From Auricularia sp. M13 (Eukaryota; Basidiomycota; Agaricomycetes; Auriculariales; Auriculariaceae), in NCBI GenBank assembly GCA_037042915.1, contig CM073194.1:1488001-1552000 (forward strand): a stretch of DNA of 64,000 nt. Direction: 5' to 3'. The position numbers were made by a program, and so were the translations under genes. Below the pieces are notes generated by a model that had not been told where the DNA came from, did not search any database, and saw only the letters and a program-made list of their open reading frames with translations. Positions 20,199 to 40,400 of the stretch are shown piece after piece; positions within the stretch are counted from its first letter, which is position 1; each line of letters starts with the position of its first letter.

Positions 20199-23120
20199 TC
20201 AAAGCTCCATACGCCCGCCAATCAGGTCACTGGCGCTCGCGCCCTTCTCGCCGTCGCTGTCCGTACCCCCGGCGCTGCCGAGCCGCGGCCGCCAGCGCAG
20301 CTGCAGCGAGCCGCGGTCCGACGCGTTGTCGTCCGACTCGCCCGCGATGGCGGCCCTGCGGAACGGCGACTCGGCGTCGCCGCCGCCGTGCGTGGGCTGC
20401 GCCGAGAACGGCGAGTCGCCCGAGTCGCGTCGCAGCACAGACGGCCGCGCGTCGGCCGAGTCCCTGCGCTGCAGAAGCGGCCGCGACACCGGACCAGACC
20501 CAGAACTGGAGCTCTGCGCCTGGCCGGCAAGCGGCGACCCGCCCGAATCACGGCGCAGCAGCAGCGGCCGCGGTGGCACGTCGGGCACGCGGAACGGCGC
20601 GGGCGGCCGACGCGGCGGGTCTGCTCGCGCCTGCGCATCACGATCGTCCTCCGTCAGACTCGCCGTGCGCCGCCGCTGCTCGATGCCCTCCAAGCTTGCC
20701 GCAAACTGCGCATGCATCGCCGCAAGCTGGTCGCGCACCTCCCCTTGTGTCGTGGGTATCGCACCGGCGCGCAGCGCTCGCTCGTCCGGCGCGCCGGCGG
20801 ATATCTCGCGCGCGTGCCGCAGTGGCGCGCGCGCATCGATCGCCTGCACGAACGCGCCCAGATCGTCTGCCTGGGCTTGCTGGTTGGAGTTGGCGGGCGA
20901 AGGGGAGTAGCGGTGCGAGAACGTCGCGGAGAAGCGCTTCTGCTGCTGCGGTGGGACGGACGAGGACGGGTCGGACGGCGAGGACGACGCGCCGCCGAGG
21001 CTCCTCCGCTCGGCGAGGCTCGACGGCGTGTACGGCGGGCTGGGCCGCGTGATGCCCGCTGTCGACGGATTCGGCGGGCTCGGCCGTGTGATGCCCATGT
21101 TCTGGCTCTGCAGCGGCGGCGACGGCCGTCCGATGCCAAACCCCGCGCCGACGGGCGAGATGCTGCTGGGCGACGAGCTCAGGCCGGGCGCGGCGATGGG
21201 GAACGACAGAGGCCGGCCGGGCGTCAGCGGCGAGGGCTGCGCGCGCGACATGGTCGAGGATGCCGTGATGGTGGGCAGCGGCGAGTTCTGCCGCAGGGAG
21301 GACGCCGCGGGCGAGGGCGAGTGGAAAGAGCCCGAGAGCGTGCCGGACTTGAACGGGTGGATCGCGTTGATGGACGGCCGCCGGTTGGGGAACGAGACGG
21401 GGGAGGGCGACGAGATGTCCTGCGTAAGGGTATGAGCGCGAACGATCATATGTAGGGAAAAGAAAATCTGGACGAGGAGGGCAGTGGGAAAGATTGGAAA
21501 CAAGACGAAGAATCAGCACCAGAAGGGTGCATAAGGACGAGCAGGTTCTCGGATATAACGTGTGTGGGTCGTTGTGTGCGTGTGCGTGGGTGGCTGCGTG
21601 GGGTGCATGCGGGGAGATGGGTGGCCGGCCAGTTGCGACGGAACGAGACGCGCACCCGGAATCGGGGACATTTGGGCCCATGTGGACCCTGCTGCGCGTA
21701 TCCAGAATGGTGGGCAAGAGCAACGGCAGGGGAAAGGCAGGGGATACGGCAGGCCGGGAGCGAGTGGGTGGGTAGCTGCGATAGAATCGCGCGGTGCCGT
21801 CTATGACAGTGGAGGAAGGCCGGCAACATCAAGAAGAGTGGAAGACAGAATGGCGAGCATGAAGCAAGCAAGGATGGAAATAACGTACCGTGCTGGCTGC
21901 GCGTTCCATGGCGACGCCGCCTGTCCCTGCGCTGTCTCGTCTGGACCGTATCGAGCCCGCATCGTCGAGCTTGAGCATGGCGAGCTTGGGGCTTAATCCC
22001 TGCTGGCTCGCGCCACTGGAGCCGGCACCGACAGACTGCTGGTGCGGCTGCGCGGACGACGGGAATGCGACAGACCCATGGCCGGGCGACGGCACGTCGC
22101 GGTTGACGAGGAACTTGTCGAGCTCCGAGCGGCTTACGAGCGCGCTGGCGGGGCGCATACCTGGCCTCTGGGGCTGGGGGAGCGAGCCTGGGGACGAGCC
22201 GAGCGATCCGGCGTGCTGCGATTCGGTGCGGTGGCGGAGGACGGTCGGCGTGAACTCGAGCGCGCGCGTGGGGTCCGGCGCGGCCTCCTGCTGCAGGAAG
22301 CGCGAGCTGAGCAGCGACTCGAGCGCGTCGATCGAAAAGTCTGCGCTCTCGAGGTACCGCAGCGAGATGGCCAGCGCGCCGGACGGGTGCGCCACTGGCG
22401 GGAATGCGTGCGTCTGCGTGGGCACGGGCGGCGCTGTTGCGCTCAGCGGGGCGCCTGCATCAGAGTCAGCACCATAATTATACTGGGGGATTGGACACAC
22501 CAAAAGGCAGGGCGCCGGGGGGCTCGCCGCCGACGACGACGTCGATGGCCAGCGAATTGCGGGAACGGCGGCTGGCGCGCTTGTGGATGCGCCAGGCGGG
22601 CAGGGCGCGCAGCAGGCTGTAGAGCGCGCGGAAGGTCGCGATGGCGTGCTTGTAGACGGCGGGCAGCGTGATGTCGTCCGGCGGGCCCTGCGCCTGCGAG
22701 CCCGGCCGGAAGTCCAGCGCCCACTGCTCGAGCAGGATGCGGCGCGGCGTCGGGAGCACGGGCGTGCGGTGGGACCCGGGGCCGCCGCTGAAGACGACGA
22801 CCTCGCCGTTGTTGAGCTCGGGGATGACGAGCAGCACGCTGAGCACCAGCGGCGGCGGGACGCTCCCGGACGACAGCGAGCGATACGGCCGCAGCGGCTC
22901 GCGGAACATGTCCGTCTCGCCCGTCTCGAGGTTGAACTGGGCCTGGCTTAGCTGGGAGCCGGACGTTGGGACTGGCACGCACCCATTTATCCACCTTCTG
23001 GCGCGGCTGGGGAAGCTGGGGCCCGGTCGCGCGGGCATCGTGCACGACGAGCGCAAACTTGTTGAAGAACTTGTGCGCGATCTGGTCGGCCTTGACGCTG
23101 GGCGGCTCAGGCTGCGACAT
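20199..23120 (-). CDS. ATG13: Autophagy protein Atg13 (HORMA domain)
   Basis: Regulatory subunit of the Atg1 kinase complex that starts autophagosome formation. Exon 1 (22983-23120) gives ADQIAHKFFNKFALVVHDAR and KVDKW; a 46-nt intron leads to exon 2 (FNLETGETDMFRE, then RPYRSLSSGSVPPPLVLSVL, VLPTPRRILLEQWALDF, FRALYSLLRALPAWRIHKR), the fungal Atg13 HORMA fold. Exon 3 (from 21889) carries LAISLRYLESADFSIDALES. A 469-nt intron (21420-21888) precedes the Ser/Pro-rich disordered tail, with repeated RRDS motifs, ending IGGRMEL. Between exons 2 and 3 the frame changes by one at a G5 run (22485-22489, C5 on the coding strand) with no convincing intron; a homopolymer error or a weak 52-58 nt intron could explain it. 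Identity is firm. Confidence 0.92.
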
Positions 23121-24964
23121 GTAGGCTCGAGCGAGTTATGGGCGCATGCTGCACCGGCCCACCAGCGGCCAGGAGTGGGTGAGCTGCACGTAATAATACC
23201 AGTCAACAACTCAAACTCATTCATTTCCGCTTTCCTCCTGCCCTGCACTCCCCACCGCCTCTCACTGCCCCCGGAACGCCCACTGATACTACTGAGTCTA
23301 CAGCTCGAAGTCCCGGTTGACGCTCAGGCCAGCGCTGGCACCCTTCCCCGGACCCGGTCGCACCTTCCTCCCCCATTCGACTCACTCGCCACAATGGCAA
23401 GGGCGATCGCATCACGGAGGACCCCTATCTCAAATCTCTCAATTACACTCGTTGATCCCATCTTAATCCGCGCATACGCTACAGTATGACTACTTATCTT
23501 AAGTTTTAATCCGCGCGATATCTTGGTTATCATCCTCCCCATCCCGCAGCCCCAAGTTCCCAGCCGGGAACTGAGTTGCACCGGGGCCACGATCGTTGCA
23601 CAGCAGAAGCACACAGTGCCTTCGCGCGGGCTGCAAACCCGCTGCAAGAAACGGCGACCCTGTCGGTTGCAGCCTCCTGCTCACGCTGCCACCATCACGG
23701 ATCGTGCGTGCAGCATGAGTAACAGTACTGGCTGGTCGTGCATAATGCGTGTCCAGTCATGGCATGCCCCTGTCCCAATCACTTCAGAGCCCGTGCATGA
23801 TTTCACGATATCACCTGGGCAAGCGGAAGACTTCCGGATTGTCCTGAACCCTGGATGAGTATCCCAGCCCAACCAGAACGCAAGGCGGTCATAGAGTGGA
23901 CATTGGGTGGACATTGGACTGGAAGGTGCGCGCGGTCAACGCAACGCAACTGAGGCCGCTTGTCCAGAAGACCCAGGTTCGGGGAAGTTTATCGGCGATA
24001 GAAGAGACCAGAGGTGACTGTGGAGGTGCGCGGATGGAAGGCGAATAGAAGACTCTGAGGAGGTAACTCGAAAGCGTCCAGAATCCAGAGCGATGCCGAA
24101 CTGGGGCGTAGGAGGCCGACGCTTGCAATAGCGACTCATAAAGAAGACAATAGCCACTGGCCAGCATAGTTGCAGACTCAGAAAAAGTTGCAGCACGAGC
24201 ACCGACGCGATGCTTGACGGAAAGTGTCGACGGATACACGAGCGCGAGTCGCCGACAGATTTTTTCTCTCGCGCAGGTGCGAGCGAAAGCGAGGTGCAGT
24301 GCAAAGAGAAAAATCAGGACACACGCCATGTACGCCGGCAGAAGTGCTGTGCGCCGCGCGCCGAGTATAAAGCCACAACCCAGATATTTTTCTGGCAAAG
24401 GAGGAGGGAGCGAGCAGTGGGCCCATTTGAAGGGCCGCCGCCGCCGTTCCTTCGACCACGACGCTCTCGTCCGCACCGAGCCATCCAATGACACTGAGCG
24501 CACTCTGTACTCTTTCTTGTGGAACATGCGAAGAAAATGCGCGGCATGCTTCGGATGCTGTCTGTTTTTTGCGGCACTGTGAATCATATCGGGCAGCTGG
24601 GCTTATGCTGGGCAATAGCCTGACCACTTGGTCATCACTGACAACCTCTGACCTCGACACCGCTCATCCTGGGACTTTCTTGTGCGCCGACCGATCCATT
24701 TGGCCCGCCAGGGTGTAGGGAACCTGCACCGGTTACTGTAGCTAGCTTCTCTCGCGCTTGGTCACTTCCGTTTCCTGAAGACGAGTGTACTTGTGGCTTG
24801 ACTGGAACGCGGCTGGAAGACAACTTGTTCTCGCTGTTCTCGCTCATGATGGCTAAATCCAAATGTCCAGCTGGAATACGGTCGCTACGCACAGTCGTAC
24901 AGTTCGTCTGGTCTACACAAGATTCCTCAGACCCCCAAAGTGATACACAATCTATCCCGATCTG
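23121..24964. other. Intergenic region of 1.8 kb
   Basis: Lies between the ATG13 start and the 3' end of the DUF2235-WD40 gene. A 232-codon minus-strand open frame (23889-24587) has no recognisable domain, no conserved motif and no splice support, so it is not called. Confidence 0.5.
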
Positions 24965-27900
24965 TCAGACCTTGTCATCCTCCAGCGTATGCTCGACCGT
25001 CTCGGTGACACTGGCAGTCGCCGCATCGAGTCCGGCCTCCGCCTCTCCAGCGTCACCGGTACCGGCAGCCTCGATATGCGCAGTCGGAGGACGACCTTCG
25101 CCATGCCCTCCTGCCAGTGGCCCCTCTGAGCCTGGGACCTCACCCGCGGTTGCGTGCGGCTCTTGCACTGGCTCTGGGGCGTGCGCCGCGTCTGCGATTG
25201 GAGGTGCCGTCTGCTGGTCTTCTGCAAGCTGGGGTTCGTCGCCAGCCGCTGTGAGCAGAGTCGGGTGGGCGGCATTGGGAGCTGCGCCGTCGGACGGTGG
25301 TACCGGTTCCCTCGCATCTTCCGGCGACAAAGGCGCAACAGTCTTGCCCGGCGCAATCGCGTCTCCTGCCTCTGCCTCGCCATGCGCAGTCACCTTTCCT
25401 TCTCCATTTGTCGCGTCTCCCGCAGCCTCGACATGCGCGGTCCGAGGAGGACCGTCTCCGTGTGTGTGTGGTTCCTCAGAGCCTGGAACCTTGTCCACGG
25501 TCGCGCGCGGCTCTTGCTCTGGCTCTGGGGCAGCTCCGGCAGCTCCACCAGACTGTGCGGGCTGGTCTGCAACGGGCGGCGTCGACTCGTCCACAGGCTG
25601 TGGAGCGTCTCCAGCCGCTGTGGGCAGAGCCGGGTCGGCTGCAGACGGGGGATTGGGAGCTGCTGGGGGAACTGGTTCGACTGCTGGCATCGGCGCGGCG
25701 GCGGCGGCTGTCGCGTCGGAAGTGGGCGGTTGAGACTGAAACCGGCGGGTGTTGGGAGAAAACGCGGGTTTGTATGGGACTTTGCGGCCGCCGAGGGGAA
25801 TAGTAGGCATGCGGTCCCAGATGCGAATGTCGTAGTCGTCTGAGCCAGAGACCACGCGCGTGCCGTCGGGTGCGAAAGCCACACATCTGACGGCATCAGT
25901 GTGGCCTTCCAGCGGCAGGCCAACAGGCTCGCCCGTATCCACATCCCAAATGCGAACGGAACGGTCGCGGGAGCCTGAGACGACGTATTTTCCCATGGGC
26001 GAAAAGGCAACGCATAGCACGCCGCGGGTATGTCCAGTCATGACATGCACGACCTTTCCGGTTTCCATGAGCCAGACGCGGACCGAACCGTCCTCTGATC
26101 CGGATACAAGGAGCTTGTCGTCAGGAGACCACGCCACCGCACGTACGAACTGGTCGTGCCCGGTAAGCACAGACGTCCAGCGAGCCTCCCGATCCAATCT
26201 CATGACCACAATCAAGCACTCCACACACAGTGACACTGCAAGATAGTGGCCGTCTGACGAGAATGACAAACAGTAATACCAGATGTTCTCAGCGGTTGCG
26301 AATGCAAGCCGCTTTCCAGTGGATGTATCCCACAACGTGAAACCGGACGGGGTCGCCGATGCAATACGTTGCGAGCGGTCAGGCGAGTATGCAACGCAGC
26401 TGATTGGAGAGTTTCCGGGCTGGTACGCGCCGAAAATTTTAGCACGCGTCTCGGGATCCCAGACCTTGATCTCGCTGTCGTAGCCAGGAGTATGATATCC
26501 TCCTATCAGGATCTTGCCATCCCGCGTAATGGCACCGCAAAAAATGCCAGATTCGTCCACAATGGGCTCTCCCAAAGGCTTGCCGGTGAAAGCATCCCAG
26601 GTAATTATGGTATGGTCCCAGGAGGCTGAGACGATGCGCCTCGAGTCAGGCAAGAAGCCAAGTGACACGATCGGGCTCGTATGATGTCGCAGCGGTTTGG
26701 GAAACGTCCCTTGGGATATTATGTCAGCATATGTCAGCTATTGCAGCATTATTAGGCAACGTACGACCGCCCTGTGCTTGCGATCTGTCTAGTACCTGAT
26801 GGAGTGGCCGGGAGTTTCGCATTGCGTCGAATGAATATTCAAGACCGTAGAGCAAAAGTTGAATATCGTTGGCAAGATCTGCTGAGTGAGGCTCGGTGAT
26901 TTTTTCCCGGCAGATAACGAGCATTTGAGTGAGCAATTCTGAAACATTCTCGTTCGCATTGTCGTGGTTATTGAGATCCAAAAGTTGTTGTTGTCCCAAA
27001 GCTGGAAACTGATTTAACAAGATGATAGCTTTATTGATGGCGACACGTACCTGCGTCGCGGAGAACCCGCAAAGAAATCCTCTCTGTTGCAGAAAGGAGG
27101 CTTCGCAGTGCCACACGATTTTTGAGGGCTGTCAACAATTGCTCGATGTCGGAGTAAGGGTCGCGTTCGACCTCCAGGCCCGCCTTCTTGAGTAATTCCT
27201 TTGTCTCCGGGGAGACACCGTCGTAAACACGTTGACCCGGATGACATTTCCGATGGGCCCAAATGTGTGGCCTGCCAAGATGTGAGTTATGGTAATTTCC
27301 TTTACGGTCGGACTGACCAGTGCGTCGTGCCGCAGTCATTGTCATAGGTCAACCGCTTGATAGGAATGCATTCCAACAGATTCCAGAAAGGATTGAGCGG
27401 GATCGTCATCTTCAGTTCGGTTTTCCAACGGTGTGGCTCGTTCGTTATCTCGAGCCCCTGGATTCGTGCCTCGAACGACATCCACCGCAGAGCGGGGCCA
27501 AATTCTTGCATCTCTTCATTCAGAATTGCTCCACCGCCGCTGAGATTGTATGAGCAAACGCGGAGACAATAAATATGTACGAGGGCTTGCTGCTCACATG
27601 TCTGAATGCGAACCGGGGAACCAAACCTCCTTTGTATGCGGAGTAGTCTCAGAGGCGTCTTGAACAGCCTGTTGAACTGACTGGGACATCGGAGGGGCGC
27701 CGGTATTGCCTGAACCCGTATGCTCTGAGCCAATCGCGTTTCCATAGAGCGCTGGCGGAGAGGGCTTGACATCCGGCCCAAATTTGAAGGACGCCGCGGA
27801 AGAGAGCGCGTTTGAAGGCGCTTCACCTTCAGGCATGATCTTGTCCGAGGTCCTAATGACAGTGAGAACGGGGTTAAGTTTCAATCTACAGACAAAGTAC

Positions 27901-29644
27901 ACACCTTGTATCTTGAGCGCCCACATCCGGCCCCAGTCCTCCCCTCACAAATTCAGGAAGGAATTTGACGCGTTGTTCATCCAGCGCCAGCGCGTGGCGG
28001 AAATAGCAAACATGTGACATTCCGCTGGCCGTACCGGGCAAGGCCTTGCCTCGCACCACGCCAACCGAGGATACGGTGTCCCTGGACAAGTTTACTCAGT
28101 CGCAAAAACCAGAGTAGATGGGCGTGCACAACACGAACCAGACACCAACAAAGTGGACTTTCACGTCGCGAGCAAAGGCGATCTTGAAACGATCCTGCAT
28201 CGTGATGCCCCTTTTTGAATTGCCACTGGCCGGCGGACTCCCTGCGCCTTCAGGGCGGCCAATGGCTTCCTTGCTCGGTGAAGCCGAATCGGGCCCAATC
28301 GCAGTGATGACTTCTGGCGACATTGTAAAGACGTTCCACACCCACTGGAGAAATGCGAGAGCACAGAACAATAGCCAACAAACGATCTCCAGTATCGAAG
28401 AGGTGCGTTGGGATGCGGGCTGGGCTGTAGTGGCTTCATCCGAGGCGGCGTAAAGTTCATAGGCGCTGCCAGCATAATGAATAAGTCGAAATTTGAGGAC
28501 GATAAGTGAATGGAGCATTGCGTACAATGGGATCTGATCGTCGTTTCCTTTGTGAATAAGCCCCACCTACGTTCAACACGATCAAAATAGTCACGGAATT
28601 AATTATGATAGACTCTTACTGTGTTAATCATCGCGGACAGCGCTCTCACTTGATAAGCACCCCTCGAGAAACCTTCACATCTACTCAGCAAAAGTAGCAG
28701 TGCACGTGGGAGATACACACCAAATAGAAATATACGGTCTCCCTCGATGTAGTTGTCGGATAACCATGCGTATGCACTCAGAATGATTTTCTCGAAGCGT
28801 CTATACCAGGCGGAGTTAGCAACTATCAGATTGCCTGTCGTGCACTCACAGCGCAAAAGCTAGGTCTAGCTTATTAGCGATGACTTGCAGAAAATAAGCG
28901 AGCGACAGCCATGATGGACGGGCGTAGGTTCCGATACCGCTGTTGTAGAAGGTGAGCTGCTTCTCGTTGCTCTTGAGCAGCCGGCTGTAAAGTTCGACAA
29001 CGTTCGTATTCTAACTGAACGTTAGCCTTTCGCGGCCGACGGAGCGTCTGAATGCCACGTACCTTCTTGCTGAACTGATTAGATGTCCCGTCGATGCAGA
29101 CAACGAGATTCCGCCCGCCTCCACGGCATTTCGGGCACTTCAAGTTTGCGCCCACCGCAGAAGGACTGCCCTCGTTGAATGTGGTGGCCTTCCTATTCAT
29201 CTGGGCTCCTGCTGGTCGCGGGGCGGGCTCGTGCTTGGCAGGTGGTAGGGGTGAAGGAGAGACCTCCGGGGCAGATGGAGGAAGTGGTGACGGAGAAGAC
29301 TGCGCGGCGGAATCTGCAGCAGGGACGGGAAGACTTTTCTCTACCTCCGTTGGTGAGGAAACCTCTCCCGGAGCGGGCTGAGGGGAGGCGTTCGGCACGC
29401 CAGTGCTCGCGTCCGGTGGAACCTCCTTCGGGGCCTCGTCCCCGCCACTTCCGGATGGCGGCACGTTGGAGGAGGGTGAATTCGCAGTGGGGATGAGCGG
29501 GCTCTGCTGCACCGCCTCCGACGGCAAGGCAACATCCCGGGCTGGCTCGGAAGTCGAGTTCGCCACAGCTGGAGACTCGTGTGGTGACTCCGAGGAGGCT
29601 GGCAGACCAGAGCTCTCGTCAGGCGGCGTCGCTTCTCCAGACAT
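24965..29644 (-). CDS. DUF2235 alpha/beta-hydrolase with a WD40 propeller and proline-rich tails
   Basis: Eleven exons on the minus strand: 29063-29644, 28850-29010, 28721-28800, 28620-28672, 28139-28566, 27905-28081, 27598-27852, 27318-27539, 27051-27271, 26765-27001, 24965-26709; every junction is in phase. Order: Pro/Ser-rich N-terminus with a CPKC pair; DUF2235 hydrolase (Tle1-like) with NLVVCIDGTSN, nucleophile elbow GFSRGAYQVRA, VHFVGVWDTVSSVGVVRG, GMSHVCYFRHALALDE and WFPGSHSDIGGG, which supply a plausible Ser-Asp-His triad; a likely membrane helix (EIVCWLLFCALAFLQWVWNV) inside the hydrolase; a linker; seven WD40 blades (for example SGSRDRSVRIWDVDTGEPVG); and a 250-residue Pro/Ala/Glu tail with an internal duplication. 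DUF2235 proteins are probable lipases; WD40 likely senses or scaffolds. The biological role is unknown. Confidence 0.88.
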
Positions 29645-37473: not shown

Positions 37474-40400
37474 TTACTCATCGTAGCGTTCCTCTTCGTC
37501 ATTCTGCCACACCTCTTCCTCCGGCGGATACTCCACCTGCTCTTGCTCTTCCTCCTCCTCGTACGCTTCCTCAACCGCCTCTTCATATGCCTCCTCCCGG
37601 GATGCATCTTCCTCTTCCTCCTCTTCTTCACGTTCGCGCCACGCAGCAGACGCATCATTGCCATCGTCCCCGTAGTCCCGCTCCCTCTCCTGATCCTCGT
37701 CCCGGTTCTCGGTAAAGTTCTCCAACGCATCAGAAAACCCGCCAGCGAGGTCAGCGCCCGCAAATCCAGCAAGGCCGCCGGCCAGCGCGCCCTGGATACC
37801 CTGCAGCCCGCCCGTGGCATCTCCCATGCCCACCATGCCGCGCGTCGCGCTCGTCTCCTGGTCCTGCGCGAATTGCTGCTCCTCCTCTTCGCTCAAGCGC
37901 TTGTTCAGCCCGTTTCGCACAGATTCCTAATGAAGTGAGTTTCGCTGCGGCAAACATGGGAGAGTCATCGGGAAGCGACGTACCTTCGAGAGCCCGTCGA
38001 TCGCCTGCTGCGCGATGTCGGGGTCAAGCCCGTTCAGCCACGTCTCCAGCTCCTGCATCATCTCGTTCTGAACGGCCGAGCGGCCTGTGGCATAGTACGG
38101 GTGATGGAATGCCTGAGAATAACCCGTCAGCTCTGACTCTGAGAGACGCCGCGTCCTTCCCGCACCTCCAGAATCTGAAGACGATGTGACGCAGATGAAA
38201 TCAGCGCACGAACTATGTGTGAGAAGCCGCACGCACAACCGTGATGACAGCATCCGGGTCCAGCTCCGGGTTTGCCCACGCCTGCGTGATGTGGTTCACG
38301 GCGTGCGTCACGACAACGCGCGCGATCTTGCCGGCGGGCTCGTTCAGAGTGAGAGCGAAGTGATCCTTCGCGGATTTCAGTATCTGATGGCGGGTCGAAA
38401 CGAAAGGGTGACTGCACGCGCGAACCTTGGACATTACACTGTGCGTGGGATCCGACGCGTCCGGGTTATCGAATACCTCGTATTGGTCCTCCGTCTCGAT
38501 CACCGCGTGGCTGCTCTCTCCGAGCACAGTTGTCACTTGCTCGAGGATGGGCGAGAGGTAGGGCTATGCAGATGAAAGCTCGAAGGTCAGACATTTCGAT
38601 GCTCCTCTGTGGTAGAAAGGCTCACAGCCAACAAGGTATAGATATCTGATCGAGCGTTAGATGCACTATTCTGACGTTGAGGGCACAGCTGCGTAACGCA
38701 CAGGTATTCAGAGAGTTGGTCAACTGGTCGATGAGGTCTGAGAGGCCGGGGATCATTTCCAGTTTCTTGATGACCTCCCGATAAACGCTGTCGCGCCACT
38801 TGAGGAGGTCCCAGAGTTGTTTCTGTACTTCGGGGGACGCGACGTTATCTGTGTGCCGACATTCAGAAATGGAATGGCACATAGGATAAAATCCGTACCA
38901 GGGTCGAAATGGTACGCCTTGGACTTCTGCTGCAAATCTTGGCCTTCGGAGACCTTCTCGTCCGCGCCGCCGCCGCCCATCACCTTTCCTAACACGCCGC
39001 GTAGGACTTCGAGATAGTTGCCTTGATCATTCTCCGACGCCTCTGATGCCTTCCAATAATAGTGTTGAGAGGCAGTTTACAAGGGGAAAAAATGTGGCGC
39101 CACACCTGCGACATGCGCCTGGAGAGATCAGTGACGCTCGTCTGGCTCATTTTGTCCGACGCCTCGCCCATAAGCGAGTGGACCAGATCGCGAGACGTGA
39201 ACGTGCCCGTGACGAGTGGCGGCGCAGGTCCCGTGGGCGTCTGGACCCAAACTACGGGCGTGATTCATGAGCTGTATACACCGGTGAGATGACCTGGAGC
39301 GCACCGTTGTCGCCGACGTGACAGAATACCTGGTCGTAGCCGAGTTTCCGCAGCGCGACCTCGCACCAGTTGCTGTGGGCGAGTAGATCTTCGAGTGTGT
39401 GCAGAGCCTGCCCCATGAGGCGGTAGGCTTCAAACGTCTCTGGGCCTTCCTCGAGGCCGGAGCGGCGGCCGAGGTCGATTGCCGCGCGCAGCGAACGGCG
39501 GATGTAGAGCGTCGAAGTGTCCCAGCCGCCGTCCTCGGTGGCCATATAGTTCTAGTACATTCGTAAGATAGATGTGCGAAGGAGAGCTGACAACAGCGCA
39601 ATCTTCTCACCTTCATGCCGTTCCGAGGGTCGATCTCAAGCTCTCGCGGGTTGACAGGAGGACGCAACCAAGGATCTGTGGGGCCTCGTTGAGGGCAAGC
39701 TTCCGGTGACGCGAAACGAGTACAAACTCACGGAATCGGCGTGCGTCGCCCTCTGCCTCGGCATATCCCCTAGTCAGGCATTCTGTCAGTTTCGTATGAA
39801 GGCGTGTATGTTACTTTACTTTGGGTTGTCGATATGTTCCACGGGAAGGTAGACGCCGAGGCGCTGAGGGGTAACCTCGAATTCCTCAGTCGCAAACCCA
39901 AATTCCTAGTGGCTGTCAGCTTGTGCAAGCTCAGAAGATGCGTGCATACCAGGAAGCCAAGTACTGAGACGACCAAGACCAGCGTCTCAGCGGTCAGCTT
40001 GGACAAGCCGCCGATGTCCATCGCCTTTCAATAAGCCGATCAGTTAGAGAAACAGTTTGTCCGGCAGGGAAGGCTCGTACTTGTGAGTAATCCCGCAACC
40101 AATTTCCCTGATGGAGTCAGTCAACCTTAGCTGAGTGCATGAGATGGATACTTGCAAAATAAATCTTCTTGACGTCTTCCTTACTAAACCGCTTGCCGCC
40201 GCTGGACCCAACGACCGAACGTGCAAAACTGAACAGGCCACCACCGGCAGCGCCGCCTGCAATCTTCACTAGATCCGAGATCACATTTTCGATATCACCT
40301 GCGAGCTGAATGAGCTTGTCGTTGTCAAGCAATCGAATGCTTTCCGCACCGTGTCGGAAAGCCTTGTCTATGGCGGATGGTCAGCGATGGCTGCGCCCAA

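Follow-up and report, generated by a model that had tools for sequence, protein, structure and literature searches.

Non-self recognition in fungi has been described mostly through NLRs, in which a NOD stands between effector and sensor. The window analysed here, a stretch of 64,000 nucleotides on C2 of Auricularia sp. M13, holds a gene in which a DUF2235 hydrolase and a WD40 propeller are found together, which raises the question of what kind of protein this is and whether it may belong to a recognition system.

Gene model and genomic distribution of the fusion

Positions 29644..24965 (minus strand) were resolved as a single 12-exon gene model of 1,365 aa, in which a DUF2235/PF09994 hydrolase is followed by a helical linker and then by a single WD40 propeller of seven blades (Table 1). 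Structure prediction was run on the propeller, which one exon encodes whole. The PF09994 match, the gene model and the propeller fold uphold the fusion of a DUF2235 hydrolase to a seven-blade propeller that a preliminary description of the locus had proposed, and the long proline-rich tails named there were likewise found at both ends of the protein.

Table 1. Features of the fusion gene and its Het-C neighbour, in window coordinates
Feature	Position	Strand	Basis or remark
Whole coding region, DUF2235-WD40 gene	24965..29644	-	gene model; spliced alignment reproduces aa 166–1092
Exon 1: Pro/Ser/Ala-rich N-terminal tail (aa 1–165), CPKC motif (aa 170–173), hydrolase start	29063..29644	-	
DUF2235/PF09994 Tle1-like hydrolase, aa 178–580	27476..29113 (span including introns)	-	PF09994, 245.8 bits (curated cut-off 27)
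Predicted catalytic Ser277 codon (GFSRG)	28665..28667	-	aligned with solved Tle1 proteins
Hydrophobic segment aa 330–348, possible membrane helix, between Ser and Asp motifs	28339..28395	-	Kyte-Doolittle 2.2
Predicted catalytic Asp416 codon (WDTVSSVG)	28078..28080	-	aligned with solved Tle1 proteins
Predicted catalytic His556 codon (GSHSDIGGG)	27606..27608	-	aligned with solved Tle1 proteins
Linker, aa about 600–775	26796..27418	-	no Pfam family above cut-off
Seven-bladed WD40 propeller, aa about 789–1083	25814..26698	-	in exon 12 (26737..24965)
Ala/Pro-rich C-terminal tail, aa 1091–1365, imperfect internal duplication	24965..25792	-	
Het-C gene (PF07217)	38216–39911	-	8.6 kb from the fusion gene

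Two pairs of segments in the C-terminal tail (25062–25180 / 25419–25531 and 25218–25274 / 25587–25643) form an imperfect tandem duplication, with 79–83% identity and a spacing of 351–369 bp. Directly ahead of the hydrolase lies a CxxC motif, which might bind metal; it is present in the window gene (CPKC, 29126–29137), the C3 paralog, the C1:5.73 gene and 27 of the 28 loci of the C1 array described below, and absent in the unfused C6 gene.

A genome-wide search with PF09994 gave 90 exon matches, which fall into 35 loci: 28 in an array on C1, one each at C1:5.73, C3, C2 (the window), C6 and C13, and two on C5. WD40 exons follow downstream in at least 31 of the 35 (the array loci, C1:5.73, C3 and the window); for the remaining four, no downstream WD40 was present among the matches listed. 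The array (C1:8,198,997-8,800,257) consists of two runs, with 10 DUF2235-WD40 loci at 8.20–8.32 Mb and 18 at 8.51–8.80 Mb, the last three of the 28 standing on the opposite strand. Every array locus models as hydrolase, linker and propeller in that order, and the introns at window residues 194, 248, 275, 306, 559 and 707 were matched in 28/28. The domain order of the window gene is also found in the C3 paralog, where 9 of 11 introns lie at the same residue and in the same phase.

The array gene models are rough: 16/28 were obtained without a stop and 12/28 with one to three stops, most likely the result of poor intron placement in a variable insert. The C1:5.73 model carries several stops. The serine and histidine motifs were read in all 28 array loci and the aspartate motif in 27; in the exception (L029, C1:8.199 Mb) the frame of the motif does not carry on into the following exon. 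The propellers of 8.663 (L064) and 8.683 (L066) on C1 are cut short, and these three loci look like damaged family members. Two WD40 fragments without a DUF2235 match (C1:8,371,424-8,371,882 and C1:8,711,880-8,712,152) lie in the array region and are perhaps remnants of others.

The fusion model was drawn from DNA alone, and its last intron was placed differently in the window and C3 models, both of which would fit two separate adjacent genes, one for the hydrolase and one for the WD40 repeats, joined by a modelling error. Against this, the C3 gene, the C1:5.73 gene and the 28 array loci keep the order, strand and splice pattern of the window gene, and a single open exon of 400–497 aa spans linker and propeller in several loci of the first array run. 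We consider such an error most improbable; hydrolase and propeller form one gene.

The predicted hydrolase, the NOD search and the Het-C neighbour

A profile search of the PDB returned the Tle1 chains 9j3f (E 6.8e-9), 4o5p (7.1e-5) and 6sjl (5e-4), all aligned with the catalytic motifs; a single-sequence search gave a weak match only (9j3f_A, E 0.55). In the alignment to 9j3f_A, GFSRG, DTVSSVG and GSHSD stand in Tle1 order. These results support a Tle1-like hydrolase with putative Ser-Asp-His motifs and bear out the catalytic set (GFSRG, VWDTV, GSHSDIGGG) named beforehand, since the Ser277, Asp416 and His556 motifs align with those of solved Tle1 phospholipases. The related TleB is described as having a Ser-Asp-His triad and PLA1/PLA2 activity (PMC12421835).

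The hydrophobic helix expected inside the hydrolase was recovered as the segment between the serine and aspartate motifs (Table 1), and it has a counterpart in the C3 paralog (Kyte-Doolittle 1.92). In the first array run, whose 10 loci were readable over this stretch, no counterpart was seen; locus 8.799 shows a hydrophobic stretch whose reading is doubtful.

According to the accessible text of a toxin survey, DUF2235 is the toxin domain Tox-ABhydrolase-1 and moved from bacteria to fungi before the ascomycete/basidiomycete split (PMC3482391). It is also reported among the domains raised in Armillaria attacked by Trichoderma (PMC10269595). A bacterial origin of the fusion itself was rejected: 0/80 DUF2235 ORFs (the best 80 of at least 576 relatives in an alignment-based scan) carried WD repeats, and the flanks of the same 80 held no WD-repeat ORF among ORFs of at least 100 aa, as judged with a WD-repeat model built from the DUF2235-WD40 family, which finds the fusion at 2.3e-73 and could miss distant WD40. 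A first scan with a one-protein query gave 45 pattern matches, none of them a relative.

A NOD was looked for with Pfam across the whole protein. Neither NACHT nor NB-ARC was found in the fusion, its linker or its tails, in agreement with the preliminary description, and a hidden NOD in the linker or tails was rejected on the same search, in which these regions gave only chance matches under the cut-off. The DUF2235-WD40 protein is therefore not an NLR; its C-terminal WD40 propeller does correspond to the superstructure-forming repeats of such receptors. Elsewhere in the genome there are 27 NACHT matches, none on C2 and none in the C1 array. A cluster of NACHT matches at C10:3.02-3.18 Mb has WD40 exons nearby, which suggests that the genome holds classical NACHT-WD40 genes alongside the NOD-less family.

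The Het-C gene near the fusion had been taken as a hint of function, a suggestion that was not supported. PF07217 matches at three places in the genome, on C2, C7 and C8, none of them near the C1 array, so its nearness carries no weight, and a functional link was rejected, as there was no sign of a tie to the fusion gene. PF07217 presumably represents a different protein from Podospora HET-C, namely the Neurospora-type het-c. The HET-C recognised by Podospora HET-E is described as a GLTP-fold protein. Both Het-C and DUF2235 are named among the toxin domains of the survey cited above (PMC3482391). On the other side, downstream of the fusion gene, an exon of the autophagy gene ATG13 was found at 22481-23323 (minus strand).

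Variability and exchange of the array propellers

In Podospora HNWD proteins, repeat codons 7, 9, 25 and 27 are reported to be under positive selection; they flank the conserved positions 8 and 26 and occupy the propeller's top face (PMC1805685, PMC2873952). From these papers, 28 recognition positions were fixed beforehand and mapped by motif to the residues flanking the conserved V and D of all seven blades, a mapping that is our own. Variability was counted over 26 full-length array propellers, leaving out 8.663 and 8.683.

Mean entropy was 2.29 bits at the 28 recognition positions and 0.43 at the other 272, and none of 20,000 random sets of 28 positions reached the former value. The 28 most variable columns include 22 recognition positions; each of the remaining six immediately precedes codon 7. 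Exposed bottom-loop positions 14–19 were conserved (at most 0.40 bits, with blade 1 shifted by one in that count). In the same propellers, pN/pS was 1.10 (bootstrap 0.91–1.38) at recognition positions and 0.35 (0.29–0.42) elsewhere; strict positive selection is not proved, because the first interval includes 1. The hydrolase segment from the aspartate to the histidine motif gave a pN/pS of 0.20 (28 loci).

Seven of the 325 pairs share a hydrolase that is at least 95% identical, and among these the mean differences amount to 76% of recognition positions, 12% of other propeller positions and 3% of hydrolase residues. In the extreme pair, 8.541/8.563, 3/486 hydrolase residues and 19/28 recognition positions differ. 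The array propellers are thus hypervariable at HNWD-type recognition positions, and the catalytic motifs are almost invariant. A NOD-less recognition family armed with a predicted phospholipase activity is well supported.

The hydrolase and propeller parts were also compared in their histories. In AU tests on propeller DNA without the recognition codons, three of the five closest hydrolase pairs were rejected as propeller pairs (p 1.4e-5, 5.2e-5 and 0.0225) and two were not (p 0.269 and 0.258), the five pairs having been chosen after the trees had been seen. Divergence of the hydrolase correlated with that of the propeller framework in the first run (rho 0.49, 45 pairs) and not in the second (rho 0.005, 120 pairs). 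The rejections and the run-wise correlations together make propeller exchange likely for part of the family.

Clustering and expansion of the family, together with a hydrolase domain described as a bacterial toxin (PMC3482391), would suit a toxin or killer element whose hydrolase acts on other cells or spores and whose propeller gives self-protection or targeting. This we regard as improbable: Pfam matched no family in the N-terminal tail, neither a delivery module nor a neutralising partner gene came to notice, and a hypervariable face suggests binding and not delivery.

Readings of the window gene and comparison with known systems

A diverged singleton, the window gene has one sister, on C3. 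The two group together in the hydrolase tree (0.945) and lie outside the array clade (0.992); the deep part of this tree is unreliable because the unfused C5 and C13 genes gave poor splice alignments (scores 9.5–56.5). Mean identity among blades 4–7 was 0.58–0.60 in three array genes, 0.40 in the C3 gene and 0.31 in the window gene. With a single close comparison and a hydrophobic segment not seen in the 10 readable loci of the first array run, the family reading extends to the window gene by inference only, and it may work like the array genes, in an immune role. The immunity-like effector proposed in the preliminary description thus gained ground through its paralogs, by way of the 26 hypervariable array propellers, and for the window gene itself depends on the comparison with C3.

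That comparison bears on a rival reading, which grants the C1 array its role as a recognition repertoire. The window gene and its C3 sister would, on this view, encode a conserved housekeeping lipase, bound to a membrane and using the WD40 as a scaffold to hold a single constant partner, for instance in the turnover of lipids or membranes. The branch of their own, the shared hydrophobic segment that the readable loci of the first array run did not show, the dissimilar, fixed-looking blades and the 70% identity of the two hydrolases fit such a role. Yet their propellers, 51% identical, have changed faster than the hydrolases, and the differences are denser at recognition positions (21/28, against 121/260 at the others; Fisher p 0.005, in the sole close comparison). 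We judge the housekeeping lipase rather unlikely, if still to be reckoned with.

An intracellular recognition-type phospholipase is the best explanation overall, and we give it about an even chance. We infer its enzyme activity, its control by the propeller, a ligand and cell death along the following lines. The Tle1-like alpha/beta hydrolase would probably be anchored or apposed to a membrane through the hydrophobic segment and controlled by the WD40 propeller, whose top face would bind another protein. Once the propeller met its target, either a non-self protein or an altered self protein, it would release or recruit the hydrolase, which could then cut membrane phospholipids and so cause damage or a lipid signal; the affected cell or hyphal compartment would probably die. 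Several points speak against this explanation. As the window gene lies outside the array clade and its blades are unlike each other, it may serve an ordinary function with an invariant partner. The hydrophobic segment occurs in the window and C3 genes and not in the 10 readable array loci, and pN/pS at recognition positions is not significantly above 1.

A wider proposal, which we advance tentatively and with somewhat less confidence, is a NOD-independent immune or allorecognition repertoire in which about 30 phospholipases descended from bacterial toxins serve as effectors, each coupled directly to its own WD40 propeller. The recognition face would diversify and be swapped between genes, and the enzyme would stay constant. 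Such a repertoire would outnumber the NACHT loci found, with the window gene as an older member anchored in the membrane.

No paper on a DUF2235-WD40 fusion was found in the open-access literature, and protein-architecture databases may list such fusions; nor was the combination of lipase, hypervariable propeller and array found in print there. The idea of a contracted, NOD-less receptor is not new, since fungal gasdermin-associated proteases with ANK, TPR or WD40 also join an effector enzyme to a repeat sensor and are, as described, mostly not NLRs (PMC10197012). Those enzymes are proteases that act on a gasdermin encoded next door, and not lipases.

Among NLRs, the fungal PLP-1 is reported to need its patatin phospholipase for cell death. 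Patatin NLRs of the PLP-1 type and SesB-like alpha/beta-hydrolase NLRs likewise tie a lipid-acting or hydrolase effector to a repeat sensor, but they are described with a central NOD and belong to other hydrolase families. Alpha/beta hydrolases are counted among the largest effector families of fungal NLRs, and in the available part of that study PF09994 is absent from the 19 Pfam start profiles (PMC9815663).

With the bacterial T6SS effectors Tle1 and TleB, the window protein shares the PF09994 catalytic domain and the Ser-Asp-His motifs; it differs in being encoded by an intron-bearing fungal gene and in carrying a WD40 propeller. The match stops short of the C-terminal membrane module of Tle1, the search profile itself having ended near the end of the catalytic domain, and the linker that follows has no Pfam family. 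If the recognition reading is true, a bacterial toxin fold would have been turned into the arm of a host receptor.

The closest likeness on the sensor side is to the Podospora HNWD/NWD proteins HET-E, HET-D and HET-R, where the specificity of HET-D and HET-E is reported to be set by the WD40 repeats. As far as the accessible text of the two Podospora papers goes, both systems have a C-terminal WD40 propeller, form a gene family, focus their variation at repeat codons 7, 9, 25 and 27 and give hints that repeats or propellers have been exchanged (PMC1805685, PMC2873952). Here, in contrast, there is no NACHT, a DUF2235 hydrolase takes the place of the HET domain as effector, and the blades are fixed at seven. 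Internal repeat identity, given as about 85% for HNWD (PMC4986451), is far lower in the three array genes (58–60%) and in the window gene, which also counts against the recognition-type phospholipase. In the array, the sensor face bears the HNWD signature and has a Tle1-like lipase attached to it directly. If the recognition reading is true, fungi would reuse the logic of the hypervariable propeller with several executioners, and near-identical enzymes paired with different sensor faces would offer a large new test set for the ligands of fungal WD40 propellers.
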